Notes under the pieces: model-generated
The model's input: only the letters and a program-made list of their open reading frames with translations
Databases searched by the model: none
What the model was told of the DNA's origin: nothing
Made by a program: the position numbers and the translations under genes
Shown here: positions 1,267 through 17,978 of the stretch, in pieces
How the letters are laid out: every line of letters starts with the position of its first letter
Position numbering within the stretch: the first letter of the stretch is position 1
Source: an uncultured Synergistales bacterium
GTDB taxonomy: Bacteria; Synergistota; Synergistia; Synergistales; Aminobacteriaceae
Direction of reading: 5' to 3'
DNA: 18,326 nucleotides
Assembly (NCBI GenBank): GCA_905233515.1
Contig: CAJOEQ010000015.1
Span: 4,127 to 22,452, forward strand

Positions 1267-1285
1267 AGGAGGGTTAGAAAAGTTG
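1267..1285 (+). promoter_or_regulatory. Shine-Dalgarno that fixes a TTG start
   Basis: AGGAGGG at 1267-1273 lies nine bases before the TTG at 1283. No ATG or GTG in the same frame lies at a suitable distance, so the site supports TTG as the start of the first operon gene. Confidence 0.7.
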
Positions 1286-1906
1286 AATCTGCAAACCGAT
1301 AAAGTGAAAGTCTCAAATACAGGTGAGGGCGTGCAGGAAGTATTAAAACTTGCTGAAAATTTCGCCGCGACTCTCTCACTCAACAAAAAAAATTCTCTTC
1401 AGCTGCGACTACTCACAGAAGAAACTATCAGCATGTTAAAAGCTGTAACTAAAGATTTTCAGGCCGATTTATGGTTTGAACAGGAAAATAATATTTGCAA
1501 ATTATTTCTTGAGGGAGAATCTTCAAATATTGATTATGGTAAGCGCAAAAATATTTTAGAACTCTCAAGCACAGGCCAAAATACTGAACCGCTCGGCATA
1601 ATGGAGAAAGTACGAGAAATCTTTGAGGCCGGAATGTACGGACTTGAAGAAAGTTTTAAGCTGCAAAACGAATCAGGAGCAGGAAATTTCAATTATGGAG
1701 CTCTTGGAATGTTAGACGCTGGAATGTCTGAAGCGGTTTATGCGTGGTCAATGCAAAAATATAAGGACGAAATCGAGGCAGCCCGCGAACTAACAGATGA
1801 GGCAGCCGACGAACTTGAGAAATCAATTATTGCGAATTTGGCCGATGATGTTCAAGTCGGAATTACCCGCGATAGTGTAAAATTAGTTATTACTAAAAAA
1901 TTTTAG
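1283..1906 (+). CDS. Degenerate RsbW/HATPase_c_2-like protein, first gene of the operon
   Basis: This 207-residue cytoplasmic protein has no signal peptide or membrane segment. Residues about 38-55 (LRLLTEETISML) resemble the N-box helix of anti-sigma-factor serine kinases, but the Asn that binds magnesium is replaced by Met. The last 30 residues (NLADDVQVGITRDSVKLVI) resemble the final helix and strand of the same fold; the glycine-rich lid between them is missing. A helical insertion with a Gly/Asn-rich loop (about 125-150) makes it longer than usual RsbW proteins, which are near 130-160 residues. It starts with TTG behind a strong ribosome site. A STAS gene follows 27 bases after the stop, the usual partner of such a fold. 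It may bind STAS or another partner without kinase activity. The family match is by pattern only; a new family is possible. Confidence 0.6.
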   Translation: MNLQTDKVKVSNTGEGVQEVLKLAENFAATLSLNKKNSLQLRLLTEETISMLKAVTKDFQADLWFEQENNICKLFLEGESSNIDYGKRKNILELSSTGQNTEPLGIMEKVREIFEAGMYGLEESFKLQNESGAGNFNYGALGMLDAGMSEAVYAWSMQKYKDEIEAARELTDEAADELEKSIIANLADDVQVGITRDSVKLVITKKF

Positions 1907-1933
1907 AAATTTATTCAGGAGGTAATTATTATC

Positions 1934-2230
1934 ATGTTAATCAACAAAGATGCAAAAGGCGACGAACTTACGATCACAATCGACGGAAGACTCGACACAA
2001 CAACAGCACCCCAGCTCGAGGCAGAAATTAATTCATGTCTTGACGGCGTGAAAACGCTTACAATGGACATGTCAAAACTTGTTTATATTTCATCAGCGGG
2101 ACTCAGAGTCTTACTCAAGGCTCAAAAGATTATGAATAAGCAGGGCAAAATGACAGTAATTAACGTCAATCAGGAAATTAAAGAAATTTTCGAAGTAACA
2201 GGCTTTGACGAGCTTCTCAATATCGAATAA
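1934..2230 (+). CDS. STAS-domain anti-sigma factor antagonist (SpoIIAA/RsbV type)
   Basis: A single-domain STAS protein of 98 residues, the normal family length. Recognisable features are the IDGRLDTTTAP strand-helix near residues 16-26, the phospho-acceptor loop YISSAGLRVLL at 51-61, and the closing INV...IFEVTGFDELLNI segment. By alignment with SpoIIAA, Ser54 (second Ser of the SSAG motif) is the expected phosphorylation site. In partner switching the unphosphorylated form binds an anti-sigma kinase, and a SpoIIE-type phosphatase restores it. Both enzyme types are encoded downstream (3334-4968 and 4971-5369). AGGAGGT lies about ten bases before the ATG. Function is clear at family level; the controlled output is unknown. 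Confidence 0.93.
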   Translation: MLINKDAKGDELTITIDGRLDTTTAPQLEAEINSCLDGVKTLTMDMSKLVYISSAGLRVLLKAQKIMNKQGKMTVINVNQEIKEIFEVTGFDELLNIE

Positions 2231-2236
2231 TAAATA

Positions 2237-3331
2237 ATGGACAGCAGAAACACGACTCTTGATATAGCTAGGGGTCTTGGAATAATTATCGTCTGCATTT
2301 ATCATATTGTATATAGGCCTGAAATGGGCTTTGCAGATATGTTAATACTTGGCGGGATCTGGTTTATACTTCCATTTTTCTTTGTGATTTCCGGATATTT
2401 ATACAAGCCCGATAAATTATTTTCAGTCAGTGAGAATATAATTTACAGAATAAAGCGATTATTAATCCCTGCTTTGAAATATACGATTACATTATTGCTT
2501 TTATGGGGGCTTTACTGCGTAATAGTTCACGGAGTTACTCTCAAAGAATGGGCGCGCGATATAGTATTAACTTATTTGAGGCCGGAATTTTACAGATTAT
2601 TAATTGATCAGGATGTCAGAATCGACGGTCTTATATATGACATGATTTCTACAGTATGGTTTTTGTGGACGATGATTCTTGCTGCACCGTTATTTTATAT
2701 ATTTGTAGATTTCACGAATAAGAGAGCTATAAATTTATTTCTTGTCTGTGCAGTATTAATAATTATCAGCACGCTTTTACATCCATATAACGCAAAATTT
2801 TCATGGAGTCTGACTCTTATACCTGTTTATAGTGCTGCTGCTTTGTGCGGGGCGTTCATGAATAGTCATGATTTGATAAATAAATTTTTTTATCGCAAAT
2901 ATAAATATATTCTCGCAGTAATTGCGGCAGTTATTCACGTGAAAATTTTTAACAAGTTCGGCAGCTTCTGGGTATTCTCGAATTCTATTTGTAATGACAG
3001 CGCAGGAAATTTTGCCGTGTTAATATTTTTCTTGCAGGTCTTTATCGGCGGATATGCTTATATAGTCCTGTGTGATTTAATAAATAAATGCGGCGTTATA
3101 AATAAAATTTTAGCGTTCATCGGGGCTAATTCTTTAGTTTTCGTGTTCATGCATAGAATTTTTTCGACAATTTTTGCTGACATTATAGGAGCACCCATAA
3201 AGAGCTGGGAATTCTGGTACGTGCCATTTACTGCGGAAGCATTTATAAAAAGTTTCTGCGGATTTATTTTTACAATTATAATGTGTTCGATTTTAGCGTG
3301 CATTATTAACAAGAGGGCGGCCAAGCTATAA
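2237..3331 (+). CDS. Membrane acyltransferase, acyltransferase-3 (OafA/NolL-like) family
   Basis: A 364-residue polytopic protein with roughly ten hydrophobic segments. The N-terminus has the family pattern: LDIARGLGIIIVCIYH with Asp9 and the probable catalytic His23, then FFFVISGYLYKP near 48-59 and RIKRLLIPAL near 68-77. Members transfer acyl groups, often acetyl or succinyl, to sugars of lipopolysaccharide, exopolysaccharide or antibiotics across the inner membrane; the substrate here cannot be read from sequence. It starts six bases after the STAS stop with no clear ribosome site, so translation is probably coupled to the STAS gene. Its stop lies two bases before the phosphatase ATG. Its place inside a signalling operon is unusual and suggests that envelope modification belongs to, or is controlled by, the system. 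Confidence 0.85.
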   Translation: MDSRNTTLDIARGLGIIIVCIYHIVYRPEMGFADMLILGGIWFILPFFFVISGYLYKPDKLFSVSENIIYRIKRLLIPALKYTITLLLLWGLYCVIVHGVTLKEWARDIVLTYLRPEFYRLLIDQDVRIDGLIYDMISTVWFLWTMILAAPLFYIFVDFTNKRAINLFLVCAVLIIISTLLHPYNAKFSWSLTLIPVYSAAALCGAFMNSHDLINKFFYRKYKYILAVIAAVIHVKIFNKFGSFWVFSNSICNDSAGNFAVLIFFLQVFIGGYAYIVLCDLINKCGVINKILAFIGANSLVFVFMHRIFSTIFADIIGAPIKSWEFWYVPFTAEAFIKSFCGFIFTIIMCSILACIINKRAAKL

Positions 3332-3333
3332 TT

Positions 3334-4968
3334 ATGAAATTTAGATTTAGGCGTAATCTAGCAGTAGAAATTCTCGCAGGTGTTATTGTAGTTCTTGCTG
3401 CTTTGACTCTAATCGTAAGCATAATAGGCTATTATGAATTTACAGGAGCTATACAAAATCAATACGCTAACAGCGCATATAATACAGCTCGAACTGCGGG
3501 GGCTTTATTGAGTCATGCATTCATTAAGAGCGATAATTACACTGCTACGGACTGGCAGCGGCAATATAACCGCATAAAACTTGAATGGAACAGATTAGCA
3601 TTAACTCAAGACGCTACATATATATATTTATTCAAGGCATCAGGCGATAAATATCAAGAAGTAACATTTTTAGTGAATGTTGCAAATCCTAAGATGACAA
3701 GAATCGGCGCATATTCTCCCGGGCATTCTTTCACTCAGACAGATCCCGTATATTTGCGGGCATTCAGCGAAATTTATGCTCAGCGAAAATTAAGATCTGA
3801 ATTTGCAAGTTACAGGCCTGAAACTGAGTATCAATCCGGGAATCATGTAACAGTCTTTTCGCCAATTTATGACATTCGCGAAGGAGAAGGCGAAATTTTA
3901 GGCGTTATAGGTGTAGAAAGACGCATGGAAGATTTAGACTCGGCTCGATGGTCATATTTGCGCGGGACTTTGAGGGCTGCGGGGATATTATTATTAGTCG
4001 TGTTAGCTCTTTACGGTTTATATTTAAGCCGCAATTTGTTATCTCCAATTCAGACAATAGCAAAGGAAGCGACACGATTTGCAAGGAAAAATACTTTACC
4101 CAATGAGCCTTTGAGTTCGAATATTCACACAAGAAATGAAATCGGCCAGCTAGCACGGACAATTGACTCAATGGAAAATGACATAATTAGCTACGTCGAG
4201 AATTTAACGCGTGTAACTCAAGAGAAGGAGCAAATAAAAGCCGAGTTAAACGTCGCTACTCAAATTCAAGCCGACATGCTGCCTAAAGACTTCCCGAATC
4301 GCAAAGAGTTTGAATTATTTGCCACAATGAAACCTGCTAAAGAAGTCGGCGGCGATTTTTATGATTTCTTTATGATTGATGATGATCATATTGCGCTAGT
4401 CATGGCCGATGTCTCAGGGAAGGGAGTCCCCGCTGCTTTATTCATGGTAATTGCTAAGACTCTAATCAAAGACCGCGCTAAAATGGGCGGGAGTCCTTCT
4501 GAAATTTTGAGCGACATAAATAATCAATTATGTGAAGGAAATGAGGCAGATTTATTTGTAACTGTCTGGCTTGGAATTCTTGAGATCTCAACGGGCAAAA
4601 TAACAGCCTCAAACGCAGGCCACGAATACCCGGCAATTAATAAAGACGGCGCAAATTATGAACTAGTCAAGACTAAGCAAAGCCCAGCAGTAGCAACTAT
4701 GGAGGGAATCAGATTCAGACAATATGAATTTGATTTAAAACCGGGCGAAAATCTTTATATTTACACGGACGGAGTTGCCGAAGCTACAAATATAAATGAA
4801 CAATTATTCGGGACTGATAGAATGTTAGAGGCTTTGAATCAGACTAAGAATTTTAACGCTAATGAGATTTTAACTCACATGAAAAAAGCTGTTGACGATT
4901 TCACAGGAGAAGCCCCGCAATTTGATGATATAACTATGTTGTGTCTGCGATATTTTGGAGGTGATTAA
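3334..4968 (+). CDS. Membrane sensor serine phosphatase: periplasmic sensor, HAMP, SpoIIE/RsbU PP2C
   Basis: This 544-residue protein has a membrane helix at about 9-33, a periplasmic sensor region at about 34-211 (Cache-like by size and by its FSPIYD...EILGVIGVE segment), and a second membrane helix at about 212-232. A HAMP linker follows at about 232-290, then the LNVATQIQADMLP regulatory helix typical of RsbU-type phosphatases. The PP2C/SpoIIE catalytic domain runs from about 320 to the end. Expected metal-binding residues are present: GGDFYD with Asp341, ADVSGKG with Asp359, TDG with Asp479, and FDD at 530-532. It should dephosphorylate the STAS proteins encoded on either side when its periplasmic sensor is triggered. 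It begins two bases after the acyltransferase stop. All catalytic motifs look intact. Confidence 0.93.
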   Translation: MKFRFRRNLAVEILAGVIVVLAALTLIVSIIGYYEFTGAIQNQYANSAYNTARTAGALLSHAFIKSDNYTATDWQRQYNRIKLEWNRLALTQDATYIYLFKASGDKYQEVTFLVNVANPKMTRIGAYSPGHSFTQTDPVYLRAFSEIYAQRKLRSEFASYRPETEYQSGNHVTVFSPIYDIREGEGEILGVIGVERRMEDLDSARWSYLRGTLRAAGILLLVVLALYGLYLSRNLLSPIQTIAKEATRFARKNTLPNEPLSSNIHTRNEIGQLARTIDSMENDIISYVENLTRVTQEKEQIKAELNVATQIQADMLPKDFPNRKEFELFATMKPAKEVGGDFYDFFMIDDDHIALVMADVSGKGVPAALFMVIAKTLIKDRAKMGGSPSEILSDINNQLCEGNEADLFVTVWLGILEISTGKITASNAGHEYPAINKDGANYELVKTKQSPAVATMEGIRFRQYEFDLKPGENLYIYTDGVAEATNINEQLFGTDRMLEALNQTKNFNANEILTHMKKAVDDFTGEAPQFDDITMLCLRYFGGD

Positions 4969-4970
4969 TT

Positions 4971-5369
4971 GTGAAGGAACTAGAAATAACAGCCGATGTG
5001 AATAATCTTGATGAAGTTCTAGCGTTTATTGATGCTGATTTAGAAGAAAACGACTGCCCGCCTAAGACTCAAATGCAGCTAGATGTCGCTATTGAAGAAT
5101 TATTTGTAAATATAGCTCATTATTCAGGCTCTGAGCGCGCAATTATTCAGACTGAAATAAACTCAGACGAGGCAGCAATAACTTTTATAGACAGCGGAGT
5201 TTATTATGACCCCTTAGCAAAACCTGATCCCGATGTAACACTTTCAGCGGAAGAACGAGAAATCGGCGGACTTGGTATATATCTCGTCAAAAAGAGCATG
5301 GACTCAATTAATTACGAGCGCAAAGACGATAAAAATATTTTGACGATTACAAAGAGGCTTCATAAATGA
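4971..5369 (+). CDS. Anti-sigma factor serine kinase, RsbW/SpoIIAB type (HATPase_c_2), intact
   Basis: A 132-residue single-domain GHKL ATPase. The N-box is complete (Glu42, Glu43 and Asn47 in EELFVNIAH), as are the G1 box (Asp74-Ser-Gly76, ending in YDP) and the G2 lid (GGLGIYLVKKSMD at 99-111). It is the only one of three RsbW-like domains in this operon with all nucleotide-binding residues, so it is the likely kinase for Ser54 of the 1934-2230 STAS protein and Ser68 of the 5366-6595 STAS domain. It starts with GTG two bases after the phosphatase stop; the ribosome site GGAGGTG lies within the last phosphatase codons. Its end overlaps the next gene in an ATGA junction. Whether its output partner is a sigma factor is not visible here. 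Confidence 0.92.
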   Translation: MKELEITADVNNLDEVLAFIDADLEENDCPPKTQMQLDVAIEELFVNIAHYSGSERAIIQTEINSDEAAITFIDSGVYYDPLAKPDPDVTLSAEEREIGGLGIYLVKKSMDSINYERKDDKNILTITKRLHK

Positions 5370-6595
5370 ATAAAAAATTCAACATCAAAATTTCATCAAA
5401 AGGGGCATTAGAATTTTCGCTCAATGGCAGGCTTGACTCTAACAGCGCGCAGGATTTCTTGAATGTTGTTATGTCAATTGCTGGTCATTCTCCGTCAAGT
5501 ATAGGCGATAAAGATAAGCATATCCCCTCGATTATATTAGACTGTCAAGAGCTTGTTTATATTTCAAGCGCGGGACTAAGGGCAATGCTGACTATCAAGA
5601 AAAGAACTGATACATTAAATTTAATAAATGTATCTCCTGAAGTATATAATATTCTTGAAGTAACAGGATTCACTCAAATTTTTAACGTCGCACAAGTTAA
5701 AGAAAATTTTATAATGTCCGGCATAAAGGAACTCGACAAAATCAACGGTGAAATAATCGCCGATACTGGCGGAATTACGATTTACAAGACAAAATCAGAC
5801 GAGTTAATAAAATTATATCCCGAAAATATTAAACTTGACGACGTAAGAAATGAATTAAATCACACGAAAATTGCATTTATAAGCGGAGTCCCGACTCTGA
5901 TTTCTTATTATGTCGTGAAAATCAAAAATAGATACGGCCTTATTTATGAGATGCCGAGCGCGAAAACTGTAGCCTCAATGATAAATTTTCAGAGTTCGAA
6001 TCTAAATTCTTACGCTAAAAATATGGGATCTACTCTCAAGCAAATTCACTCGTGTATTATTGAAGATGGAATTTTGCCGAAAACTAGCGATTTATTTCTT
6101 GATTATCTCAAGAAGGCAAGTGCTTATTATAACCCTGATGAGGTCTCGCAGCTTTCTGATATAATTCGCGCAATTCCTGAAAGCAATAAATTTATTTATG
6201 GAAATTATCACGCCGGAAATGTATTTATTCAGAATAACGAGATTTTATTATTAAACATGTCGGGCGTAAGTGTCGGCAATCCTATATATGATCTCGCAAA
6301 AAGTTATATGTTTCATGTCTCAGAGTCAGAAATTTTTGCGCAGGCTTTAATGGGATTTGACGTTCATAGATCTGAGATATTTTCACATGTCATGTTATGT
6401 GCTTATTTCGGTTCAGTAAATATCACGGAGCAAGAAAAAATTATAAATATGGCTGCGGATTTGTGTTCGGCACTTTTACCGGGGATGGGCAAATTTCCAC
6501 CTGAACAAATAGTGAAATTCACAGCAAAAGCAAGGAAAAATATTTTAGCAAATTCTTATGAATACATAGAAACTTTATCGCAGGCAAATTTTTAA
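5366..6595 (+). CDS. STAS domain fused to an APH-like pseudokinase
   Basis: This 409-residue protein has two parts. Residues 1-108 are a STAS domain with the phospho-loop VYISSAGLRAML (expected acceptor Ser68) and the closing ILEVTGFTQIFNV. Residues about 120-400 resemble the aminoglycoside phosphotransferase/choline-kinase-like fold (TIGR02172-type): Lys149 in ELIKLYP fits the ATP-binding lysine, and YGNYHAGNVF at 278-287 and LLNMSGVSVGNPIYDLA at 295-311 fit the catalytic and metal loops. In active relatives these loops read HGDxHxxN and (I/L)D. Here both Asp are Asn (Asn280 and Asn297), while His282, Asn285 and Asp309 are kept. The codons AAT and AAC are plainly read. The kinase part is therefore probably a binding or scaffold domain. 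It starts at an ATGA overlap with the kinase gene behind AAAGAGG. Confidence 0.85.
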   Translation: MNKKFNIKISSKGALEFSLNGRLDSNSAQDFLNVVMSIAGHSPSSIGDKDKHIPSIILDCQELVYISSAGLRAMLTIKKRTDTLNLINVSPEVYNILEVTGFTQIFNVAQVKENFIMSGIKELDKINGEIIADTGGITIYKTKSDELIKLYPENIKLDDVRNELNHTKIAFISGVPTLISYYVVKIKNRYGLIYEMPSAKTVASMINFQSSNLNSYAKNMGSTLKQIHSCIIEDGILPKTSDLFLDYLKKASAYYNPDEVSQLSDIIRAIPESNKFIYGNYHAGNVFIQNNEILLLNMSGVSVGNPIYDLAKSYMFHVSESEIFAQALMGFDVHRSEIFSHVMLCAYFGSVNITEQEKIINMAADLCSALLPGMGKFPPEQIVKFTAKARKNILANSYEYIETLSQANF

Positions 6596-6619
6596 GGAGG
6601 ATTTACACTTTTTATCATG
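6594..6619 (+). promoter_or_regulatory. Unusually spaced ribosome site before the first binding protein
   Basis: AAGGAGG at 6594-6600 overlaps the preceding stop codon and lies 16 bases before the ATG at 6617, about twice the usual spacing. No ATG, GTG or TTG lies in frame between them. The ATG is still favoured because a good signal peptide begins there. The wide spacing may lower translation of this first paralog. Confidence 0.5.
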
Positions 6620-7558
6620 AAAAAATTTTTTTGTGCAGTATTAATATTATTGCTAGTTACTTCAACGAGTTTTGCAGCAGCTAAGAAACCGGCCAAGAAT
6701 GCCCCGAAATCCGTAAATTCAGGCGTATTGACTTATTTAGGGACGACTGAGTCAGAATTTCAAGAGAGTCTTGACGATTTAAGAAAGGCTGTAGCTCCGT
6801 TAATTCCCACTGAAGAAGAAAAAGGAGAATGGGAGAGTTATGACCGTTTAGAAGGTTTTCTTGCTGATTTAGTGAAGACTCGCCGAGTTATCAAATTTTT
6901 TGACTCGTTAATGGCTATGGAGATGGCTTTACGTTCAGGGCGTATTGATGAGTTGTCATTGCCTGAAGCAGTTGCGTTATATCTCGTGCAGAATAATGAC
7001 AAGTACGACATTTTATTTTCGCTTAATATGATGCCGTCAACTATATCATTTGGATTTAAGCGTGGAAATACTAAGCTGCAAAAAGAATTTAACTCGGCAA
7101 TTTCAGCAATGAAGAAGGACGGGACATTAAAGCGTCTTGAGAGTCAATATATTACGGACTTGGCCGGAAGTGAGCCGAAAGCCGTAAAATTTCAGGAGTT
7201 CAAAGGCGCGCAAACAATAAAAGTTGCAGTAACCGGTGATTTACCGCCTATAGATTATATTGCGGCAAATGGGACTCCGACTGGATATAATACGGCGATT
7301 TTGAACGAGATAGGAAAGCGGCTCAAGAAAAATATTAGGCTTATTAGTGTAGATGCAGGCGGAAGATCTGCGGCGTTATCGTCAGAACGTGCTGATGTTG
7401 TATTCTGGTATAGAAACACTGAAGGCTTGAATACTAATAAAGTTAAAGGCTTGAAGGGGAAAAATATCAACATGAAGGACTCAATTGAAGGCGTAATACT
7501 TTCAGAGCCCTATTACACATGGGATACTGATATAGTACTCGGAAGAAGAACGCAATAA
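6617..7558 (+). CDS. Exported family-3 solute-binding protein, paralog 1, circularly permuted
   Basis: This 313-residue protein has a Sec signal peptide (MKKFF..., cleavage near SFA-AA at 20). Residues about 36-181 look like lobe 2 of a family-3 (SBP_bac_3) amino-acid-binding protein: VLTYLGTTESEF, FFDSLMAMEMALRSGRIDE and FNSAISAMKKDGTLKRLESQY. Residues about 201-309 look like lobe 1: VAVTGDLPPIDY, TPTGYNTAILNEIGKRL, SAALSSERADVVFW and GVILSEPYYTW. In usual family members lobe 1 comes first, so the order is swapped. It has extra Lys/Ala/Pro-rich sequence after the signal and about 20 more residues near 62-85 than its sisters. First of five tandem paralogs serving the permease at 11019. The ligand is unknown. 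Confidence 0.85.
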   Translation: MKKFFCAVLILLLVTSTSFAAAKKPAKNAPKSVNSGVLTYLGTTESEFQESLDDLRKAVAPLIPTEEEKGEWESYDRLEGFLADLVKTRRVIKFFDSLMAMEMALRSGRIDELSLPEAVALYLVQNNDKYDILFSLNMMPSTISFGFKRGNTKLQKEFNSAISAMKKDGTLKRLESQYITDLAGSEPKAVKFQEFKGAQTIKVAVTGDLPPIDYIAANGTPTGYNTAILNEIGKRLKKNIRLISVDAGGRSAALSSERADVVFWYRNTEGLNTNKVKGLKGKNINMKDSIEGVILSEPYYTWDTDIVLGRRTQ

Positions 7559-7586
7559 TTTATTTAATTCAGGAGGTTATGAAATC

Positions 7587-8408
7587 ATGCGGAAAATTTT
7601 ATTAGCTTTATTGCTTGTAATGCTTTGTGCTAGTATAAGTTTTTCAGACTCGGCAAAAATTGGAATGCTTATACCTGTAGGACTTGACGAGGCCGGAGTC
7701 CGTGAATGGACAGAAAAAATTGCGGAACTCGAAGGCAAATCGGAAATTTTCACGAACGAAAACGAAATTATATTTTATGAAAATTTAACGTCTATGCTCA
7801 TGGCACTTCAGGCGGGGCAAATTGATAGAATAGCTCTATCTTCAATGCCTGCACGTTATATCGCAGCCCGCAACGAGAATTTAAATTATATTGATAATCA
7901 TCATAATGCGATAATCGGTTACTCTTTGGCAGTCCCAGAATCAAAGCGCGCTATGTTAATGGGAATCAATTTAGCAATTTTCGACATGAAAGCAGACGGG
8001 ACTCTGACAAGATTAATGCGTAAATATATGTTAGAACTTGGCACCAATGACCCCGAACCCGTTACAATGCCCGTTTTTCACGGTGAAGAGACTCTAAAAA
8101 TTGCAGTAACAGGAGATTTGCCCGCGATGGACTGCATTTTAGCGAATGGAGCTCCGGCGGGATTCAATACGGCGTTTCTTGCTGAATTAAGCAAACGAAT
8201 CAAGAAAAATTTTGAGCTAGTCAGCATTAGTACAGGAGCGCGAGAAAGTGCCTTAACTTCCGGAAGAGTTGACATGTTATTCTGGACTCGTTCAGTTTAT
8301 AACGATAAAGGTGAGAGAATGCCCTTCCCTCTTGATAATTTTACCGGTGTAGCAATTTCTGAGCCTTATTTGCTTGACTCACGTGCTGCACTTGAACTTA
8401 AAAAATAG
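7587..8408 (+). CDS. Exported family-3 solute-binding protein, paralog 2, most diverged
   Basis: A 273-residue exported protein with a signal peptide ending near SFS at 20. It has the same swapped layout: lobe-2-like residues about 23-150 (NLTSMLMALQAGQIDRIAL, then FDMKADGTLTRLMRKYM) and lobe-1-like residues about 170-265 (IAVTGDLPAMDC, APAGFNTAFLAEL, SALTSGRVDMLFW, AISEPY). It departs most from its sisters: the LPPID core reads LPAMD, the LPE(S/A/V)VA segment reads LSSMPAR, and the LAFGFK strand is changed to YSLAVPES. Its ligand or role may therefore differ. AGGAGGT lies nine bases before the ATG at 7587; an out-of-frame ATG at 7579 is too close to that site. A Cys at 14 lacks a proper lipobox. 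Confidence 0.82.
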   Translation: MRKILLALLLVMLCASISFSDSAKIGMLIPVGLDEAGVREWTEKIAELEGKSEIFTNENEIIFYENLTSMLMALQAGQIDRIALSSMPARYIAARNENLNYIDNHHNAIIGYSLAVPESKRAMLMGINLAIFDMKADGTLTRLMRKYMLELGTNDPEPVTMPVFHGEETLKIAVTGDLPAMDCILANGAPAGFNTAFLAELSKRIKKNFELVSISTGARESALTSGRVDMLFWTRSVYNDKGERMPFPLDNFTGVAISEPYLLDSRAALELKK

Positions 8409-8420
8409 GAGGCCGCTATA

Positions 8421-9305
8421 ATGAATATAAAGAAAAAAATTTTTTGTGCGTTAATTTTGCTTGTGTTAGCTGCTGTTAGTGTCAATGCGTTCGAGATAAA
8501 ATTAATCAAGCTCGGCTTACTGGCAAAAATGAATTCCACCGAGTCAGAATATACTAATACATGGAAAAAAACTTTTGCGCCTCATAATGAAATATTAAAG
8601 CTCAACATCAAATTTTATGATAGTCTAAGTGCTATGCAGCTTGCTTTAACTAAGGGAGAAATCGATCAAATGGTTTTGCCCGAGTCAGTCGCAAATTATT
8701 TCTTGAACAGCACTCACAAAGATTTTGAGGCCGTACTCGCCTTGCCTTCACCGGGTAGGGGACTCGCCTTTGGATTTCTTGAATCTAATAAGAAATTACG
8801 CGACGAATTTAATCAAGCTCTGCAAATTTTGCGCGATGACTGGACTTTATCATCACTTGAAGGACTCTATATAAGCTCGATAACTAATGAAGATAATCTT
8901 GAGCCTATAGAATTCCCGAAATTTGAGAATGCCGAGACTATAAAAGTAGCTGTAACAGGAGATTTGCCGCCTATAGATTTTATTACACCTATGGGAGCTC
9001 CGGCTGGGTTTAATACTGCTGTGCTTGCTGAAATCGGGAGATTACTCAAGAAAAATATCGAGTGCGTAAATATTGAAGCAGGCGGAAGAAGTGCGGCTCT
9101 CTCATCGGGACGTGTTGATGTTGTTTTCTGGTATGAGATTGACACTGTCGGCCGGGATAAAGCGGACATTCCCGACGGAGTTATTTTGTCATCGCCCTAT
9201 TTCACATGGAATAAATTTATTCACATTAAGAAGATTCCCGAAAAAGTTAAAGGCGGTTCAGGCTGGAATTATAAACGTAATTTCTTGAATCTTTACAGGA
9301 GATAA
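8421..9305 (+). CDS. Exported family-3 solute-binding protein, paralog 3, with basic C-terminal tail
   Basis: A 294-residue exported protein with signal cleavage near VNA at 23. Lobe-2-like residues about 27-152 include KLGLLAKMNSTESEY, which aligns well with the usual start of lobe 2, then FYDSLSAMQLALTKGEIDQ, LPESVANYFL, LAFGF and LRDEFNQALQILRDDWTL. Lobe-1-like residues about 174-269 include VAVTGDLPPIDF, APAGFNTAVLAEIGR, SAALSSGRVDVVFWYE and DGVILSSPYFTW. Unlike its sisters it has a tail of about 24 residues rich in Lys/Arg and aromatic residues (270-294). The ribosome site AGGAGG overlaps the stop of paralog 2, so the two are probably translated together. Best member for showing the swapped lobe order. 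Confidence 0.86.
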   Translation: MNIKKKIFCALILLVLAAVSVNAFEIKLIKLGLLAKMNSTESEYTNTWKKTFAPHNEILKLNIKFYDSLSAMQLALTKGEIDQMVLPESVANYFLNSTHKDFEAVLALPSPGRGLAFGFLESNKKLRDEFNQALQILRDDWTLSSLEGLYISSITNEDNLEPIEFPKFENAETIKVAVTGDLPPIDFITPMGAPAGFNTAVLAEIGRLLKKNIECVNIEAGGRSAALSSGRVDVVFWYEIDTVGRDKADIPDGVILSSPYFTWNKFIHIKKIPEKVKGGSGWNYKRNFLNLYRR

Positions 9306-9311
9306 TTATTC

Positions 9312-10190
9312 ATGAAAAAATTTTTTGCGCTGATTATAATATGCTTGCTTGCATGTCCTGTATATGCTGCTGAAGTCCCGGAAGATTTAGAAGTCGGATT
9401 CTTGACTCGTCTCAAAACAAATCCCGATGAATTTTATAAAATCGTAAAAGACTCATGGACTACAAAAGGCTGGGCAATTTTAGGCGGCAATCACTCACTA
9501 AGCACGGCGAAATTTTATGATTCACTCTCAGCAATGCAGTTAGCACTTGATAGAAATGATATTGAAGAAATGATTTTGCCTGATTTTGTAGCTGAATACT
9601 TGATTAAGATTAACTCAAAATATACTGTATCATGCATGTCGAGAACTAATAATAATATGAGCCTTTGTTTCGGTTTCATGAAAAATAATCGGGAATTAGC
9701 TGACAAATGGAATTCTGCATTACGTTCAATGAAAGCTGACTGGGTATTAATGGCCATCAATCAGAAATATTTGAAGGACTTCCCAGCGAGCAATAACGAA
9801 TATGATAACATTTACGGGACAAATCCGAGAAAAGAGCGCGAGAGATTCGCGATAAAAATCGAAAATTTTCCAAATGCTCCGATTATAAGAGTTGCTATTA
9901 CTGGAGATTTGCCGCCAATTGATTTTGTGAATGAACAGGGACTCCCAGCAGGTTTTAATGTTGCAGTCTTAGCAGAAATAGGCCGGCGTTTACGAGTCAA
10001 TATTCAGCCCGTCCAAGTCGAATCAGGAGCAAGGGCAGCGGCTCTTGTGTCAGGTCGTGCGGATGTAGTTTTCTGGTTTGAAGTTAACAGATCTCAAGAC
10101 GCGCAGTTAGACATTCCCGACGGTATAATTTTGTCGGATTCTTATTTAGACTGGAACAATTTTTTACATGTTAGATTAGATGAGGAGTAA
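9312..10190 (+). CDS. Exported family-3 solute-binding protein, paralog 4
   Basis: A 292-residue exported protein. The signal region MKKFFALIIICLLACPVYAAE allows type I cleavage after YA; LLAC also loosely resembles a lipobox, so a lipoprotein is possible. Lobe-2-like residues about 27-154 keep KFYDSLSAMQLAL, ILPDFVAEYL, CFGFMKNNREL and MKADWVLMAINQKYL. Lobe-1-like residues about 190-287 keep VAITGDLPPIDF, LPAGFNVAVLAEIGRRL, AAALVSGRADVVFWFE and DGIILSDSYLDW. The linker between lobes is longer than in the sisters, with a charged KERERF stretch near 174-179. AGGAGA covering the last codons of paralog 3 serves as its ribosome site, and the gap is six bases. Confidence 0.85.
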   Translation: MKKFFALIIICLLACPVYAAEVPEDLEVGFLTRLKTNPDEFYKIVKDSWTTKGWAILGGNHSLSTAKFYDSLSAMQLALDRNDIEEMILPDFVAEYLIKINSKYTVSCMSRTNNNMSLCFGFMKNNRELADKWNSALRSMKADWVLMAINQKYLKDFPASNNEYDNIYGTNPRKERERFAIKIENFPNAPIIRVAITGDLPPIDFVNEQGLPAGFNVAVLAEIGRRLRVNIQPVQVESGARAAALVSGRADVVFWFEVNRSQDAQLDIPDGIILSDSYLDWNNFLHVRLDEE

Positions 10191-10196
10191 TTTATT

Positions 10197-11006
10197 ATGA
10201 AAAAATTTTTTGCTGCGTTATTATTAACAGCTTTATTTGCAAGTTCGTCATTTGCTGCGGGTCATAAAGTAGGCATGTTAGCTAAACTTTGTATGAATGC
10301 TGCTGATTTTGCCTCAAATGTTAAATATCAGTATTTTTCACTTGAAAATTTGAGCGCGCCCGAATTCAAATATTATGATTCAATTAATGCTATGCAGTTA
10401 GCTCTCAGTGCCGGAGAAATTGACGAGATAGCATTACCTGAAGTCGTATCAAATTATTTAATGGCCGCTGATCACGATTATTTAATTAATTGCGTTGTCA
10501 TAATGAGAAGTAACCCGCTTGCTTTTGCATTTGGCTTTAAGTCAGATAATGAAGGACTCAGGGACGAATTTAACAAGGCACTCGCAGAAATTAAACGCGA
10601 CGGGACATTAATAACTCTTCAAGCACAATTTTTAACGCCTAAAGACTCAATGATGGAAATTCCCGCGCCTGTTCATTTCACGAAATTTGACGGAGCAAGA
10701 ACTATTAAAGCCGCAATTACTGGAGATTTGCCCCCGATAGATTTTGCAGCTCCTGATGGAAAGCCGGACGGTTTTAATGTTGCGTTACTCGCTGAAGTTG
10801 CCAGGAGATTAAAATTTAACGTTGAAATCTTGAACATTGAGTCAGGTTCTAGAGCGGCGGCCTTATCTTCAGGACGTGCAGATGTAGTATTCTGGTTTGA
10901 AATTTATCGCGGATTAGCGACTCAGCCAGATGTGCCGGATGGTGTAATTTTGTCAGAGCCTTATTATAATTTTGACACGATTTATCATTTAAAACTAGCA
11001 AGATAA
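10197..11006 (+). CDS. Exported family-3 solute-binding protein, paralog 5, shortest
   Basis: A 269-residue exported protein with signal cleavage near SFA at 20. Lobe-2-like residues about 23-147 have KVGMLAK, YYDSINAMQLALSAGEIDEIALPEVV in two adjoining blocks, AFAFGFKSDNEG, and LRDEFNKALAEIKRDGTL. Lobe-1-like residues about 168-267 have AAITGDLPPIDF, KPDGFNVALLAEVARRL, AAALSSGRADVVFWFE and DGVILSEPYY. It is the most compact member, with little beyond the two lobes and a linker of about 20 residues, and it lies next to the permease gene (12-base gap). It is a good reference for the core fold of the group. Confidence 0.86.
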   Translation: MKKFFAALLLTALFASSSFAAGHKVGMLAKLCMNAADFASNVKYQYFSLENLSAPEFKYYDSINAMQLALSAGEIDEIALPEVVSNYLMAADHDYLINCVVIMRSNPLAFAFGFKSDNEGLRDEFNKALAEIKRDGTLITLQAQFLTPKDSMMEIPAPVHFTKFDGARTIKAAITGDLPPIDFAAPDGKPDGFNVALLAEVARRLKFNVEILNIESGSRAAALSSGRADVVFWFEIYRGLATQPDVPDGVILSEPYYNFDTIYHLKLAR

Positions 11007-11018
11007 AAGGTGTAAAGA

Positions 11019-11702
11019 ATGACTCTCAGCGATATATTATATAAAATTTTAATTCAGGGCGGATCTTACTGGACAATTTTAAAAGGTTTAGGCGCGACTG
11101 TTCAAATTTCTTTATTTTCGCTTTTATTCGGGACGATTTTAGGCGCGTTCGTGTGCATGCTTAGAATGTCCAAGATAACAATTTTTAGATTTTGTGCGAC
11201 AGTTTATATAGTAATTTTGCGCGGTTCACCTGTTTTAATGCTGTTAATGCTTATGTATTACGGGATTTTTGCGCGGAGTTCACTAGAGGCGAATACTATA
11301 GCAATTATAACTTTTTCATTGAATGTAGCCGCCCATGTTGCCGAATTATTAAGAGCGTCAATTAATGCTACAGATTACGGCCAAATCGAAGCAGCCAGGA
11401 CTCTGGGATTTGGAGCTTTTCAGGCGTTCAGGCTTGTTACTTTGCCGCAGATTATCACGATTGCAAAGCCCGTTTATCAGTCTACAGTTGTAAATTTAAT
11501 TCAATGGACGAGCGTTGTCGGTTATGTCTCGATTACTGATTTAACGCGGGTAATTAATAATATAGCGTCTCGAACTATGCAGCCAATGATCACGATTATA
11601 ATCGGAATGTTAATTTATTTAGCACTTGCTTATATAGTACACGGTTTATTTGCTTTATCTGATTATATTCAGGCTCGTAAAGAAAGAGAGGCGGCGGCGT
11701 GA
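11019..11702 (+). CDS. ABC transporter permease, HisM/GlnP polar amino acid type
   Basis: A 227-residue inner-membrane permease with about five membrane helices. Family signatures are clear: ILKGLGATVQISLFSLLFG at the start, YIVILRGSPVLMLLMLMYYG near 63-82, and the EAA loop GQIEAARTLGFGAFQAFRLVTLPQ near 121-144, which docks on the ATPase. Length is normal for the family. It is the only permease in the operon, so a homodimer is expected. The ribosome site AAAGGTG lies just upstream of the ATG. Its TGA stop overlaps the ATG of the ATPase gene by one base. By family it should import amino acids or similar small polar solutes, but the odd binding proteins and altered ATPase leave transport unproven. 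Confidence 0.93.
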   Translation: MTLSDILYKILIQGGSYWTILKGLGATVQISLFSLLFGTILGAFVCMLRMSKITIFRFCATVYIVILRGSPVLMLLMLMYYGIFARSSLEANTIAIITFSLNVAAHVAELLRASINATDYGQIEAARTLGFGAFQAFRLVTLPQIITIAKPVYQSTVVNLIQWTSVVGYVSITDLTRVINNIASRTMQPMITIIIGMLIYLALAYIVHGLFALSDYIQARKEREAAA

Positions 11703-12808
11703 TGAGCTTAATTCAAGTAAAAAATTTGTGTAAATCATTCGGGAGTCTTAGTGTTTTACAGGGCGTTAATCTCGACATCAACGAGGGCGAAAAAATAGCT
11801 GGGAAGAGTGTATTTCTGCGTTCACTTGAATTATTAGAAGTCCCTGACAGCGGGCAAATTTTTATCGACGGTGAAGAGATAACAGCGAAAAATGCCGACG
11901 TGAATCAAATTCGCCGTAAAATGGGCATGGTCTATCAGAAATTTTATTTATTTTCACATATGAACGTGCTAGATAATTTGTGTCTTGCTCCCGTAAAACT
12001 TTTAGGAATTTCGCGTAAAGATGCAGAATCTCAAGCTATTGACTGGCTTTCAAAAGTCGGCTTAACTTCAAAAGCTAAATCAATGCCCGCTAATTTATCA
12101 GGAGGTCAGCAGCAAAGAATCGCAATTTGCCGTTCTCTCATGATGAATCCGAAAGTTTTATTATTTGACGAGCCTACAAGCGCATTAGATCCCACTATGG
12201 TCGGAGAAGTTCTTGCTATGATTAGAATGCTCACTAAACATAACATGACTATGTTAATAGTAACTCATGAAATGAATTTCGCGCGTGAAGTTGCTGACAG
12301 AGTTTTATTTTTTGCCGACGGTGGAATTTATGAGCAGGGAACGCCGGATAAAATTTTTGACTCGCCTGAACGTGAAAAGACTATAGCATTTATTCGCAAA
12401 TTAAAATATTTCACGTATGAGATTAACACGAGAGATTTTGACTTGTTAGCACTGCACGGAGGTATTCACAATTTCGCGGAAAAATACGGAATTGACTCAA
12501 AACTTTCATACAGATTGCAATTATGTTGTGAAGAGCTTGTTTATGAGATTATTTCAGGCTGTTATGATAAATTTTCGCCGATCGATATAAATATAAGCGT
12601 GTCATATTCAGAGGCAGACTCTACGACTTTAATAAATCTCACGGCCAAGAATGCGAAAAAATTTAACCCGTTTGAGATTAACGAGTCAGACGACGAAGAA
12701 AATATACATCTGGGAGTCGCCATGTTAAAGCGGATTTCTCAAGATATAAAATATAATTTTGACTCAGGCAATAATAATATAGAAATTGTCTTAGGTGAAA
12801 GGAAGTAA
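11702..12808 (+). CDS. GlnQ-type ABC ATPase with shortened Walker A, fused to a degenerate RsbW-like domain
   Basis: 368 residues from the ATG at 11702, which overlaps the permease TGA; an in-frame GTG at 11699 is an alternative. Residues 1-232 are a polar amino acid ABC ATPase: Q-loop Gln79 (MVYQK), signature LSGGQQQRIAICR at 132-144, Walker B VLLFDEPTSALD at 152-163 (Asp156, Glu157), and H-loop His189. The Walker A region reads EGEKIAGKSVFLR (29-41): GKS is kept but the preceding GPSGS-type loop, about seven residues, is missing. Residues about 238-368 resemble an RsbW-type GHKL domain: RLQLCCEELVYEII at 271-284 matches the N-box helix but ends in Glu instead of Asn; the G1 Asp is absent (TAKNAKKFNP); LGVAMLKRISQDI near 337-349 matches the lid helix. 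The fusion ties the transporter to the partner-switching proteins upstream. Confidence 0.9.
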   Translation: MSLIQVKNLCKSFGSLSVLQGVNLDINEGEKIAGKSVFLRSLELLEVPDSGQIFIDGEEITAKNADVNQIRRKMGMVYQKFYLFSHMNVLDNLCLAPVKLLGISRKDAESQAIDWLSKVGLTSKAKSMPANLSGGQQQRIAICRSLMMNPKVLLFDEPTSALDPTMVGEVLAMIRMLTKHNMTMLIVTHEMNFAREVADRVLFFADGGIYEQGTPDKIFDSPEREKTIAFIRKLKYFTYEINTRDFDLLALHGGIHNFAEKYGIDSKLSYRLQLCCEELVYEIISGCYDKFSPIDINISVSYSEADSTTLINLTAKNAKKFNPFEINESDDEENIHLGVAMLKRISQDIKYNFDSGNNNIEIVLGERK

Positions 12809-12816
12809 AAATTTTT

Positions 12817-14430
12817 ATGCGCAAGATTTTAGCGTTGATTTTAATATTAGCTGCGTTAAATATTCCTGCTTATGCTGTGAATTTACCCGATAAAGATATA
12901 TTTATCATTTACACGAACGACGTACACTGCGGAATTGATGATCACATAGGTTATGATGGACTCGCTTATTACGTCAAGCAAATGAAAGAGTCAAATCCAT
13001 ATGTAACACTTGTTGACGCTGGCGACGCTGTGCAGGGTGATACAGTGGGCGCGATCTCTCACGGGCGATATATAATCGAGTTAATGAATTTCTTGAGCTA
13101 TGATATTGCAGTGCCCGGAAATCATGAATTTGATTACGGCTGGGGACAATTTGAGAATTTCGTCAAGAATCTCAAGTGCGGCTATCTTGTTTGTAATTTT
13201 AGGGAGATAGCGACAAATAAATTAGTTCTTCCGCCATACAAAATTTTGAATTACGGAAAAGTAAAAGTTGCTTATGTCGGAATCTGCACGCCCGAAACTA
13301 TGGTAAAATCAAGACCCATGACTTTTATGGACGAACACGGAAAATTTATATATGATTTTGACGGAGAAAGCACGGGTAAAAAATTATGCGCTTCAGTTCA
13401 GAAAGCAGCCGATGACGCACGGGCAGCCGGAGCAGATTTTGTCGTAGCAGTCGGACATTTAGGCGAATATGAAGACATTATGACAGAATGGAGCTCACCT
13501 TTTATAATCGCAAATACTCGCGGAATTGATGTATTAATTGACGGACATTCGCACGAGATAACGCCATCACTGAAAATCAAGAATCTTGACGGCCGCGAAA
13601 TAAATATAACTCAATCGGGCACAAAATTAATGCGTATAGGCCAAGTTGTAATTCATACGGACGGAACTATAACGACGGGCTTAATTGACAAAGTTGACGG
13701 CAAAGACCCCGACACAGATAATTTAATTCAAGACATTAGAAAGCGTTATGAAGGCACGTTAAAATCTCATTTAGCTTATACTAGTTTTGATTTACTTGCT
13801 GTTGACGATAAAGGCGAGTGGCTTGTAAGGGACGGCGAGACAAATTTATGCAACCTCGCAGCAGACGGGGGACTCTATGCGGCAAAAGAGACGAAAACCG
13901 GACGCGCTGACATTGCATTAATAAACGCCGGGGCAATCCGCAAAAATATTAAAGCCGGAGAAATTACATATAATGAAGCCTTATCAGTCCAGCCATTTGG
14001 CAATACTTTAGGGCTTTATGAGATGTCAGGCCAGACTATTATTGACGAGTTAGAATTTGGCGCGAGACTCATTCCGAACAGATTCGGCGGTTTCTTGCAT
14101 GTTGCCGGATTGACTTACACAATTAACGAGAAGATACCGACTCCTGTAAAACTTGACGACCATGAACAATTTATAGGCATTGAGGGCGAACGCAGAGTCA
14201 GTGATGTACTTGTGAACGGCCAGCCTATTGATCCGAATAAAAAATATATAGTATCAGGGACAGATTTTGTCATACGAGGCGGCGGAGACGGCCATGTGTT
14301 CAAAGACGCAAAATTAATCGAACGTGATTTTATGGTCGATACTGATGTATTTGCGCATTATATAAAGTCTCTAGGTGTAATTCCTGAACGTTATAGCAAG
14401 TCCCAGAATAGAATCAAATTTGTGAAGTAA
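12817..14430 (+). CDS. Periplasmic 5'-nucleotidase / 2',3'-cyclic phosphodiesterase, UshA-like
   Basis: A 537-residue exported metallophosphoesterase with a signal peptide ending near AYA at 20. The N-terminal two-metal domain has all usual ligands: TNDVHCG (Asp35, His37), DAGDAVQGD (Asp70), GNHEFDYG (Asn102, His103), VGHLGE (His214) and DGHSHE (His244, His246). The C-terminal substrate domain has NAGAIR at 370-375, NEALSVQPFGN near 386-396, GGFLHVAGL near 424-432 and GGDGHVF near 489-495. It is expected to release phosphate and nucleosides from nucleotides in the periplasm. It sits eight bases after the ATPase stop, behind AAAGGAAG, and ends the operon just before a strong terminator. Exact substrate is unknown. 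Confidence 0.93.
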   Translation: MRKILALILILAALNIPAYAVNLPDKDIFIIYTNDVHCGIDDHIGYDGLAYYVKQMKESNPYVTLVDAGDAVQGDTVGAISHGRYIIELMNFLSYDIAVPGNHEFDYGWGQFENFVKNLKCGYLVCNFREIATNKLVLPPYKILNYGKVKVAYVGICTPETMVKSRPMTFMDEHGKFIYDFDGESTGKKLCASVQKAADDARAAGADFVVAVGHLGEYEDIMTEWSSPFIIANTRGIDVLIDGHSHEITPSLKIKNLDGREINITQSGTKLMRIGQVVIHTDGTITTGLIDKVDGKDPDTDNLIQDIRKRYEGTLKSHLAYTSFDLLAVDDKGEWLVRDGETNLCNLAADGGLYAAKETKTGRADIALINAGAIRKNIKAGEITYNEALSVQPFGNTLGLYEMSGQTIIDELEFGARLIPNRFGGFLHVAGLTYTINEKIPTPVKLDDHEQFIGIEGERRVSDVLVNGQPIDPNKKYIVSGTDFVIRGGGDGHVFKDAKLIERDFMVDTDVFAHYIKSLGVIPERYSKSQNRIKFVK

Positions 14431-14441
14431 TAAAAAAATTT

Positions 14442-14477
14442 GAGGCTGACTCAAAACGAGCCGGCCTCTTTTTTTTT
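14442..14477. terminator. Bidirectional rho-independent terminator between convergent operons
   Basis: An 11-pair stem (14442-14452 with 14458-14468; GAGGCTGACTC against GAGCCGGCCTC) has one G-T wobble and one A-C mismatch and closes on an AAAAC loop. Nine T follow at 14469-14477 for the plus strand. On the minus strand the stem is followed by the complement of the A-rich run at 14432-14440, giving a T-rich tract. It lies between the stop of the plus-strand nucleotidase (14430) and the stop of the minus-strand CsgG-like gene (14492), so it probably ends both operons. Confidence 0.88.
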
Positions 14478-15904: not shown

Positions 15905-15934
15905 TATAATAAATGCCTCCGTGCTTATAAAAAT

Positions 15935-16534
15935 TTAAAACATTTGATACATGCCTGATTCTACTGCTGACATTATAGCCTTATATGAGGCCTCATCATC
16001 AGTATAGCCGACTTGTTTACCCATTGAGGTTTTGCCGCCTAATTTAGTCCCTCGTGAAGTTACAGCCATTATAGCCGCCGACGCTGTACCAGTATACAAA
16101 TTAAATTCATTTACAACGGGATAACCTGCGCTGACTCTTGCTACAACGGTAGCTGCTGCACTGTAACTCGCATTGAGTCTCATAATAGCGTCGACATTTC
16201 CTTCAAGTGCATAACGTGCGGCCTTTGCTCTTGCTGCTGCCTGTCGTATTCGTCTCATTTTTGCCTCATCGACGACTCTATATCCGTTACTTCTAAGCAT
16301 TTCGACAATAATTGCCTCGGCTGTCTTGACGTGCTGAGGATTATCGCCTGTTACAACGACTGCAATATCGCCTTTTTTCGGCAAAACACTGCGACCGTTT
16401 TCGGTAGATCCTCCATAAGAATAATCATATCTCGGCGACTCTACGTAATTATCAAGTTTTCCGCCGAGTCCTGCCGCACTTGCAAGACTTGTGATTAATA
16501 GTACGAGAATTAACGCTAAAAAAATTTTCCTCAT
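15935..16534 (-). CDS. Small exported protein with CsgG/TolB-N-like domain
   Basis: A 199-residue exported protein with a signal ending near ASA at 20. After a Tyr/Gly-rich segment, residues about 57-190 carry a pattern like the core of CsgG-type domains: DIAVVVTGDNPQHVKTAEAI, EMLRSNGYRVVDEAKMRRIR, RYALEGNVDAIMRL, ATVVARVSAG, and a closing helix DDEASYKAIMSAVESGM. It is much shorter than full CsgG proteins and has no extra domain. Its ATG directly follows the stop of the FlgT-like gene, and AAGGGAGG lies within the last codons of that gene. No specific function can be assigned; by context it works with the two larger envelope proteins on either side. Confidence 0.7.
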   Translation of the reverse strand: MRKIFLALILVLLITSLASAAGLGGKLDNYVESPRYDYSYGGSTENGRSVLPKKGDIAVVVTGDNPQHVKTAEAIIVEMLRSNGYRVVDEAKMRRIRQAAARAKAARYALEGNVDAIMRLNASYSAAATVVARVSAGYPVVNEFNLYTGTASAAIMAVTSRGTKLGGKTSMGKQVGYTDDEASYKAIMSAVESGMYQMF

Positions 16535-17974: not shown

Positions 17975-17978
17975 TTTC

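Follow-up and report, generated by a model that had tools for sequence, protein, structure and literature searches.

The window analysed here is a stretch of 18,326 nucleotides from an uncultured Synergistales bacterium (assembly GCA_905233515.1, contig CAJOEQ010000015.1, positions 4,127 to 22,452 of the forward strand). It carries 14 consecutive plus-strand genes (1283-14430), in which the genes of a partner-switching core are followed by those of an ATP-binding cassette (ABC) importer. Partner switching is known mainly for freeing sigma factors. We tentatively read this operon, with confidence just short of even, as a partner-switching system that has the ABC importer as its output. The ATPase of the importer ends in an RsbW-like tail, which makes the transporter look like the output of the switch and not like its input.

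The genes stand in the order degenerate HATPase-like protein, STAS protein, acyltransferase, SpoIIE-type phosphatase with HAMP domain, RsbW-type kinase, STAS-APH fusion, five solute-binding proteins (SBPs), permease, tailed ATPase and 5'-nucleotidase. The intergenic gaps are 27, 6, 2, 2, -4, 21, 28, 12, 6, 6, 12, -4 and 8 nucleotides. An earlier sequence-only reading had described the single run, very short gaps (28 nucleotides is the maximum) and a terminator behind the last gene, all of which were upheld. Its gene content was confirmed by profile matches (two STAS domains, SpoIIE with HAMP, an RsbW-type HATPase, five SBP_bac_3 proteins, one permease, one ATPase and a 5'-nucleotidase), and the fusion of the ATPase to RsbW, which it had also named, was secured by profile-profile comparison of the tail with RsbW. 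It had counted thirteen genes, leaving out the acyltransferase (2237-3331), and "several" stop/start overlaps, of which there are two, each of 4 nucleotides. The identical 14 genes in identical order are present in genome G051 (L136). For these 14 pairs the ratio of nonsynonymous to synonymous substitution (dN/dS) is 0.08-0.30, and purifying selection on the operon genes is shown for this one genome pair.

The partner-switching core and the ATPase tail

The features that carry this reading are the following.

1283-1906, plus strand: gene 1, degenerate HATPase-like protein of 207 residues (tentative assignment; no Pfam match)
1934-2230, plus strand: STAS protein of the anti-sigma-factor-antagonist type (PF01740, 3e-17; TIGR00377 above cut-off)
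3334-4968, plus strand: SpoIIE-type (PP2C) phosphatase with HAMP domain and an N-terminal, probably extracytoplasmic, sensor region (PF07228, 1e-43; PF00672)
4971-5369, plus strand: RsbW-type serine kinase (PF13581, 1.6e-18; N, G1 and G2 boxes intact)
5366-6595, plus strand: STAS domain fused to an APH-like (TIGR02172) pseudokinase (Pfam and TIGRFAM profiles)
11699-12394, plus strand: ABC ATPase domain, GlnQ/TcyN/EhuA-like (Pfam and TIGRFAM profiles)
12395-12805, plus strand: C-terminal RsbW-like, kinase-degenerate domain of the ATPase, putative receiver (profile-profile match to RsbW)

The partner-switching core is complete, with intact catalytic motifs, and on paper it should work. Some loci were fetched twice per genome, and a recount over distinct sequences was used (before removal of duplicates the counts were tails 7/124, RsbW 23/24, STAS 38/38, Walker A 122/123 and 149 chains of lobe order 2-1). 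The RsbW N-box Asn is kept in 22 of 23 distinct family members, the STAS phosphosite Ser in 37 of 37 and the SpoIIE metal-binding Asp residues in 25-26 of 26, these being the roles that we take the residues to have. The family profile of the 4971-5369 group matches solved RsbW and SpoIIAB. The STAS-pseudokinase (5366-6595) has Asn in place of Asp at both of the motifs that we take to hold the catalytic Asp positions. A paralogous STAS-APH with intact kinase motifs was observed elsewhere (L098, 25-1185), and the gene after it presumably encodes a tyrosine phosphatase, as judged from a motif. Gene 1 has Met at the N-box position in 21 of 22 distinct sequences and Leu in the other one, with Glu-Glu kept. 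Its profile similarity is weak (11% to RsbW, 49% to the ATPase tail), and with the N box lost it was rejected as an RsbW kinase. The idea of a further complete system at another place in the genome was also rejected: the gene at 3334-4968 gives the only SpoIIE match, and the other parts are scattered over contigs C65 (another tailed ATPase, Walker A intact), C308 (a STAS-APH with intact kinase motif) and C168 (a candidate that reads as an ordinary histidine kinase).

The tail comprises residues 233-369 of the ATPase and is homologous to RsbW (98.5%, E 1.8e-15 in the profile-profile comparison), although by itself it stays below the Pfam cut-off (20.8 vs 27.4 bits). Of 118 distinct tails, only 7 retain the N-box Asn (the window has Glu there) and 11 have Asp at the position aligned with G1, so that kinase activity of the tail is unlikely. 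All 124 tail copies retain the second Glu of the N-box region. Against G051 the dN/dS of the tail is 0.065, lower than that of every one of the 14 whole genes in this single pair, and that of the ATPase domain is 0.095. Being conserved while its kinase residues are lost, the tail is best read as a binding module. The predicted model of the ATPase has a mean predicted local distance difference test (pLDDT) of 92.9 over the whole protein. The fold of the tail is assigned from sequence profiles and predicted secondary structure, since Foldseek and VIA-align of the model show mainly the ABC domain, with MetN, PotA and MalK among the fold matches; the tail profile found no match among the sequences of solved structures. 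The tailed ATPase is matched by 819 proteins at E 1e-120 or better, which among the matches listed are named as plain ABC ATPases (11 names). L206 (15997-17197) has, adjoining STAS, a tandem of three short proteins or fragments that match the RsbW-like tail.

In the window copy most of the Walker A motif is lost in frame (11780-11815). With the P-loop mostly missing, this copy as read should not hydrolyse ATP normally, which counts against an importer output in this genome. Of 117 distinct family members in the alignment, 116 have the motif and the window copy alone does not; all 120 homologues among the matches listed have it, three of them 96% identical. The motifs expected of a PAAT importer (Walker A, signature and Walker B) are all found in the family, and the set is incomplete in the window copy. 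The loss is private to this assembly, as a strain-level loss or an error; functional claims should therefore rest on relatives, and the missing P-loop was rejected as a feature of the system. That the importer is dead or dying here, through gene decay or in appearance through an assembly error, we consider very improbable. The absence of the motif from this genome alone and the fragmented assembly (2.03 Mb, 353 contigs, 89.6% complete) fit such an explanation, but the frame is kept, the remainder of the ATPase looks constrained against G051, and decay or error in one copy leaves the family-wide reading untouched.

The mechanism that we propose for the operon is as follows. The STAS proteins would be phosphorylated on the conserved Ser by the RsbW kinase (4971-5369) and dephosphorylated by the SpoIIE phosphatase in the membrane (3334-4968), whose activity its sensor region would drive. 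One STAS phospho-state, probably the unphosphorylated one, would dock on the RsbW-like tail of the ATPase (12395-12805), and docking would turn transport on or off, in a direction that we infer; the binding of MlaB to MlaF is comparable. The tail would act as a receiver and not as an enzyme, because its kinase residues are lost. Gene 1 and the STAS-pseudokinase may be further non-catalytic partners or scaffolds, and the circularly permuted SBPs would feed the importer with its presumed ligand. We put forward with distinctly more reserve the wider proposal that the kinase-dead RsbW-like domain is a portable receiver, through which STAS partner switching would control ABC importers, MATE and EamA proteins directly and after their translation, the output being transport and not transcription.

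Recurrence of the two halves and of the tail in relatives

A pattern scan of species genomes for the tailed ATPase found at least 582 relatives, not all of which need carry the tail, and the best-scoring 80 of these at least 582 were taken as loci. All 80 carry the tail; within the fetched stretches a permease is present in 75 and an SBP lobe in 62. They are labelled as Synergistaceae, Selenomonadaceae, Clostridia, Lachnospiraceae, Elusimicrobia and other groups, and most of them are metagenome bins. Among the records without a bin label that have a tailed ATPase are those of Selenomonas ruminantium S137 and Lachnospiraceae LC2019; S. ruminantium TAM6421 has one on its plasmid pSRC1 (L002), with a STAS gene about 7 kb upstream. 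The closest named relatives of the window assembly are Synergistaceae/Synergistales bins, mostly from ruminants. SpoIIE, RsbW and STAS occur together in 7 of the 80 loci (L008 from Synergistaceae, L024, L046, L065, L076, L077 and L080), on the opposite strand in L076. These seven are labelled Synergistaceae, Clostridiales/Clostridia, Elusimicrobia, Bacteroidales and Pelotomaculum bins. Profile A1 matches 86 of 185 genomes, an upper bound for tailed ATPases since it also catches true RsbW.

Within the genus, the tail profile matched all 43 genomes in the phylum search (best E 4e-28 or better), and SpoIIE was found in at least 42 of them. Of 43 places with a window-type tailed ATPase, one per genome, 15 have SpoIIE no more than 15 kb away, whereas 0 of 71 places with an untailed GlnQ-type ATPase of the genus do (Fisher p 7e-8); the window-type (type A), other and untailed sets were parted by hand by score and frame length, some untailed rows are fragments or share a contig with a tailed ATPase, and proximity is undercounted at contig ends (e.g. 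G044, L196). Type A was defined by at least 134 bits in the tail-profile search and includes three sister-genus genomes. SpoIIE is present in 12 of 28 fetched type-A stretches, all 12 with RsbW and SBPs. Gene 1 was found in 18 of the 28, comprising 11 of the 12 with SpoIIE and 7 of the 16 without, and thus bridges the two halves of the locus.

Several observations weigh against a fixed link between the halves. None of the searched core parts was found in the fetched stretches of 58 of the 80 loci, many of them short contigs. Neither SpoIIE nor RsbW is present in 16 of the 28 type-A stretches, of which two (L133 and L159) are short. For tailed ATPases of other types, only 4 of 44 places have SpoIIE nearby, and genome G067 (86% complete) has no SpoIIE among the matches listed. 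The seven tails that retain the N-box Asn likewise speak against a receiver without kinase function. In two cases a single contig has both halves, separated by 71 kb in one and by 102 kb in the other. The sequence-only reading had proposed one system and had named halves standing apart in relatives as evidence to the contrary. The neighbourhood counts support it in part, through the proximity to SpoIIE and the seven loci with a full core, and half of the contrary evidence was found, because of the 16 stretches without SpoIIE and the separated halves. The union of the halves is real and repeated, but it is not obligatory.

These separations would also be expected if the core had a different target, such as a sigma factor like FliA, the acyltransferase or envelope enzymes, the tail serving merely for regulation or dimerisation, as in MetN or MalK, and the proximity being a matter of loose co-regulation. 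We regard this as rather unlikely. It agrees with L203, a 20 kb stretch that has SpoIIE-RsbW and STAS without a tailed protein, and with the C-terminal regulatory domains common on ABC ATPases (MetN, PotA and MalK were among the fold matches). It does not account for the absence of untailed ATPases near SpoIIE, nor for the relationship of the tail to RsbW. Moreover, the genome, which is 89.6% complete, yielded no SigB/F/G-type sigma factor. Three of its proteins match sigma-70 region 2, namely RpoD, one of FliA/WhiG type and one small sigma-70, and the FliA-type protein scores 113 bits where the SigB/F/G model requires 234. No sigma gene is present in the window, and none was found with three query sequences in 20 further SpoIIE stretches. 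FliA may nevertheless be a target of the partner switch.

The tail was also found on proteins of other transporter families. Five type-A stretches (L135, L141, L144, L145 and L149) have proteins of about 600 residues with the tail between STAS and SpoIIE, and Pfam recognises EamA in those of L149 and L008 (the L008 protein is the same as that of L141). L148 and L152 have a tailed protein of 282 residues in this place, with no Pfam family in L152, the sole one tested. MatE proteins with the tail are encoded at L030 14994-16748, L069 13720-15471, L077 2939-4666 and L082 3062-4852, three of the four over the Pfam HATPase_c_2 cut-off. In L077 this gene stands in one same-strand run with STAS, SpoIIE, RsbW, SBP-permease and the tailed ATPase. 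Genomes G069, G083 and G084 have an importer locus without SpoIIE, and the SpoIIE-RsbW-STAS locus there holds a tailed protein. The SpoIIE locus of G045 also has one; a contig end cuts this locus and the stretch contains no STAS. Sixteen stretches were chosen for SpoIIE or tail matches. Further MatE proteins with the tail, assigned by tail profile and length only, were seen in L173-L180, and proteins of about 290 residues with an N-terminal part hydrophobic by eye and an RsbW-like tail were seen between STAS and SpoIIE genes (L186 12094-12975, L187 10327-11178, L188 2540-3421 and L152 2741-3589).

The 20 further SpoIIE stretches were picked by hand down the SpoIIE match list, one per genus genome and not strictly the first 20. 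RsbW is present in 9 and a tailed protein in 5, the two together in 3 (L191, L196 and L206). Against a general transporter output stand the 9 stretches with SpoIIE alone and the 6 of 9 RsbW stretches without a tailed protein, mostly short contigs, together with L203. A lone SpoIIE phosphatase of about 580-610 residues, with no kinase or STAS partner found adjacent, is a recurrent arrangement (L189, L190, L192, L193, L195, L197, L199, L204 and L205). A transporter output fits many loci but not all, and SpoIIE serves other purposes as well.

The direction of signalling was considered separately. The sequence-only reading had taken the exported SBPs and the periplasmic sensor of the phosphatase as a joint input, and this was not supported. 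The sensor region of the window SpoIIE is recognisable (at least 200 bits) in 7 of the 12 SpoIIE-bearing type-A stretches and SBP1 (at least 420 bits) in all 12, so an obligatory pairing of the two was rejected; the tail itself points to output. Transporters act as sensors in other systems, and ligand-bound SBPs with a cycling importer could still alter the tail, which would then phosphorylate or sequester STAS and so report transport to the core. The homology of the tail to RsbW and the many SBPs per locus are consistent with such an input. We hold it to be unlikely, since the kinase residues of the tail are lost (sequestration would still be possible), the sensor varies while SBP1 stays, and tails occur on MatE and EamA-type proteins, families that to our knowledge do not depend on SBPs.

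Binding proteins and the remainder of the window

The importer genes upstream of the ATPase are listed below; lobes are given in residues.

6617-7558, plus strand: SBP1, circularly permuted family-3 SBP (lobe 2 at 35-179, lobe 1 at 197-301)
7587-8408, plus strand: SBP2, circularly permuted (lobe 2 at 24-148, lobe 1 at 167-262)
8421-9305, plus strand: SBP3, circularly permuted (lobe 2 at 30-151, lobe 1 at 170-261)
9312-10190, plus strand: SBP4, circularly permuted (lobe 2 at 28-154, lobe 1 at 189-279)
10197-11006, plus strand: SBP5, circularly permuted (lobe models and match to a solved SBP)
11019-11702, plus strand: permease of the polar-amino-acid ABC type (PF00528, TIGR01726)

All five SBPs have the lobe order reversed with respect to canonical family-3 proteins, SBP5 also against solved SBPs. 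The N-terminal half of SBP1 matches the C-terminal half of TIGR01096, and in SBP5 residues 57-139 align with 143-224 of chain 4zv1_A and residues 169-256 with 11-93. The predicted model of SBP5 has a pLDDT of 91.6. Its Foldseek matches are partial and poorly superposed, mostly to binding-protein or related folds (among the 50 matches listed, query TM is 0.29-0.48), and thus fit a permutation without proving it. Lobe order 2-1 was found in 137 distinct separate chains and 1-2 in 2, the remainder being partial or mixed patterns, with lobe models that were built from permuted proteins. What we take to be the usual ligand-binding Arg and Asp of family 3 are out of place in most of the five window SBPs. 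Fused arrays in relatives read 21-21-...-permease, with up to eight SBPs in a chain of 2252 residues (L162). The permutation may have originated by loss of the end lobes from such a tandem array. A second type of tailed ATPase in the genus (L161-L168, e.g. L162 7042-13800) is accompanied by permuted SBPs and permease in single chains of 1054-2260 residues. In the window's own genome, the SBP that accompanies an untailed GlnQ-type ATPase can be aligned co-linearly with the permuted SBPs; this permuted SBP (L099 2516-3331, contig C60) belongs to an ordinary ABC operon, and the permutation is therefore not tied to partner switching. The permease scores 65.7 bits with TIGR01726, the cut-off being 42.2 (BPD_transp_1/HEQRo type).

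Three further features belong to the gene run.

2237-3331, plus strand: membrane acyltransferase (Acyl_transf_3; PF01757, 2e-18)
12817-14430, plus strand: exported 5'-nucleotidase/UshA-type enzyme (PF02872, PF00149)
14442-14477, plus strand: intrinsic terminator, fold at about 14442-14468 (folding against shuffles)

The acyltransferase gene is present in 5 of the 12 type-A stretches with SpoIIE and in none of the 16 without. The 5'-nucleotidase is probably accessory and was rejected as a core part, as among the 28 type-A stretches it was found only in the close relative L136. SBP3 (8421-9305) and the nucleotidase (12817-14430) have a synonymous divergence (dS) of 0.09 against G051 and the other genes 0.25-0.68, which makes recent recombination between lineages likely. 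The terminator fold has -18.1 kcal/mol (z -3.8), and none of 200 shuffles was equally good. It was absent from the consensus terminator scan because of a mismatch in its stem. The same scan listed no terminator-like site at 6595-6617, and a consensus promoter scan of the window was uninformative. Downstream lies a convergent minus-strand cluster of four genes (14492-18245), two of which match CsgG/LpoB/FlgT-type families.

Comparison with known systems

If the proposed control is true, gut and rumen bacteria of several phyla gate transporters directly with this switch, and phosphatase sensors would set uptake or efflux without new transcription. A large unannotated domain would gain a function, and the path from a signal at the envelope to transport would become testable. 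In the open-licence PMC literature, subscription papers lying outside this scope, the titles and abstract openings among the matches listed describe no ABC ATPase-RsbW fusion, no partner switching that controls a transporter and no permuted family-3 SBPs. In part of its text, a review of STAS domains (PMC8256260) gives the target of SypA as unknown and reports STAS domains within SulP transporters, and that part does not mention "ABC".

The locus has the same trio as RsbU/RsbV/RsbW and SpoIIE/SpoIIAA/SpoIIAB of Bacillus, a PP2C phosphatase, a STAS protein with its Ser and a HATPase kinase, all with intact motifs. Unlike in the Bacillus systems, no SigB/F/G-type sigma factor was found here, kinase-degenerate HATPase-like domains are added, one of them fused to the ABC ATPase, and a STAS-pseudokinase and an importer are encoded in the same operon. 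The proposed system resembles MlaFEDB in that a STAS protein would work with an ABC ATPase. MlaB, a STAS protein, binds the ATPase MlaF and is needed by it, and a conserved Thr at their interface is a site of phosphoregulation in other STAS proteins, a regulation raised by the authors themselves (PMC7367683). MlaB binds MlaF itself, whereas docking here is likely to be on the RsbW-like tail, and the locus also encodes a kinase and a phosphatase. Neither the MlaE permease nor the MCE protein MlaD had a Pfam match among the 19 window proteins scanned. With GlnPQ-type importers, in which tandem substrate-binding domains are fused to the permease (PMC8025302), the locus shares the permease and ATPase families, and its relatives share the fused tandem SBPs. 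It differs from them in the permutation of the SBPs, up to eight per chain in relatives (L162), and in the tail of the ATPase. TpMglB-2 of Treponema is a naturally circularly permuted glucose-binding protein (PMC4990184), and thus a transporter binding protein with the same kind of change. It is a type I/cluster B sugar protein, while the window proteins match family-3 amino-acid SBPs; with the latter, natural circular permutation extends to SBPs of the amino-acid type, where it is also found in long fused arrays.

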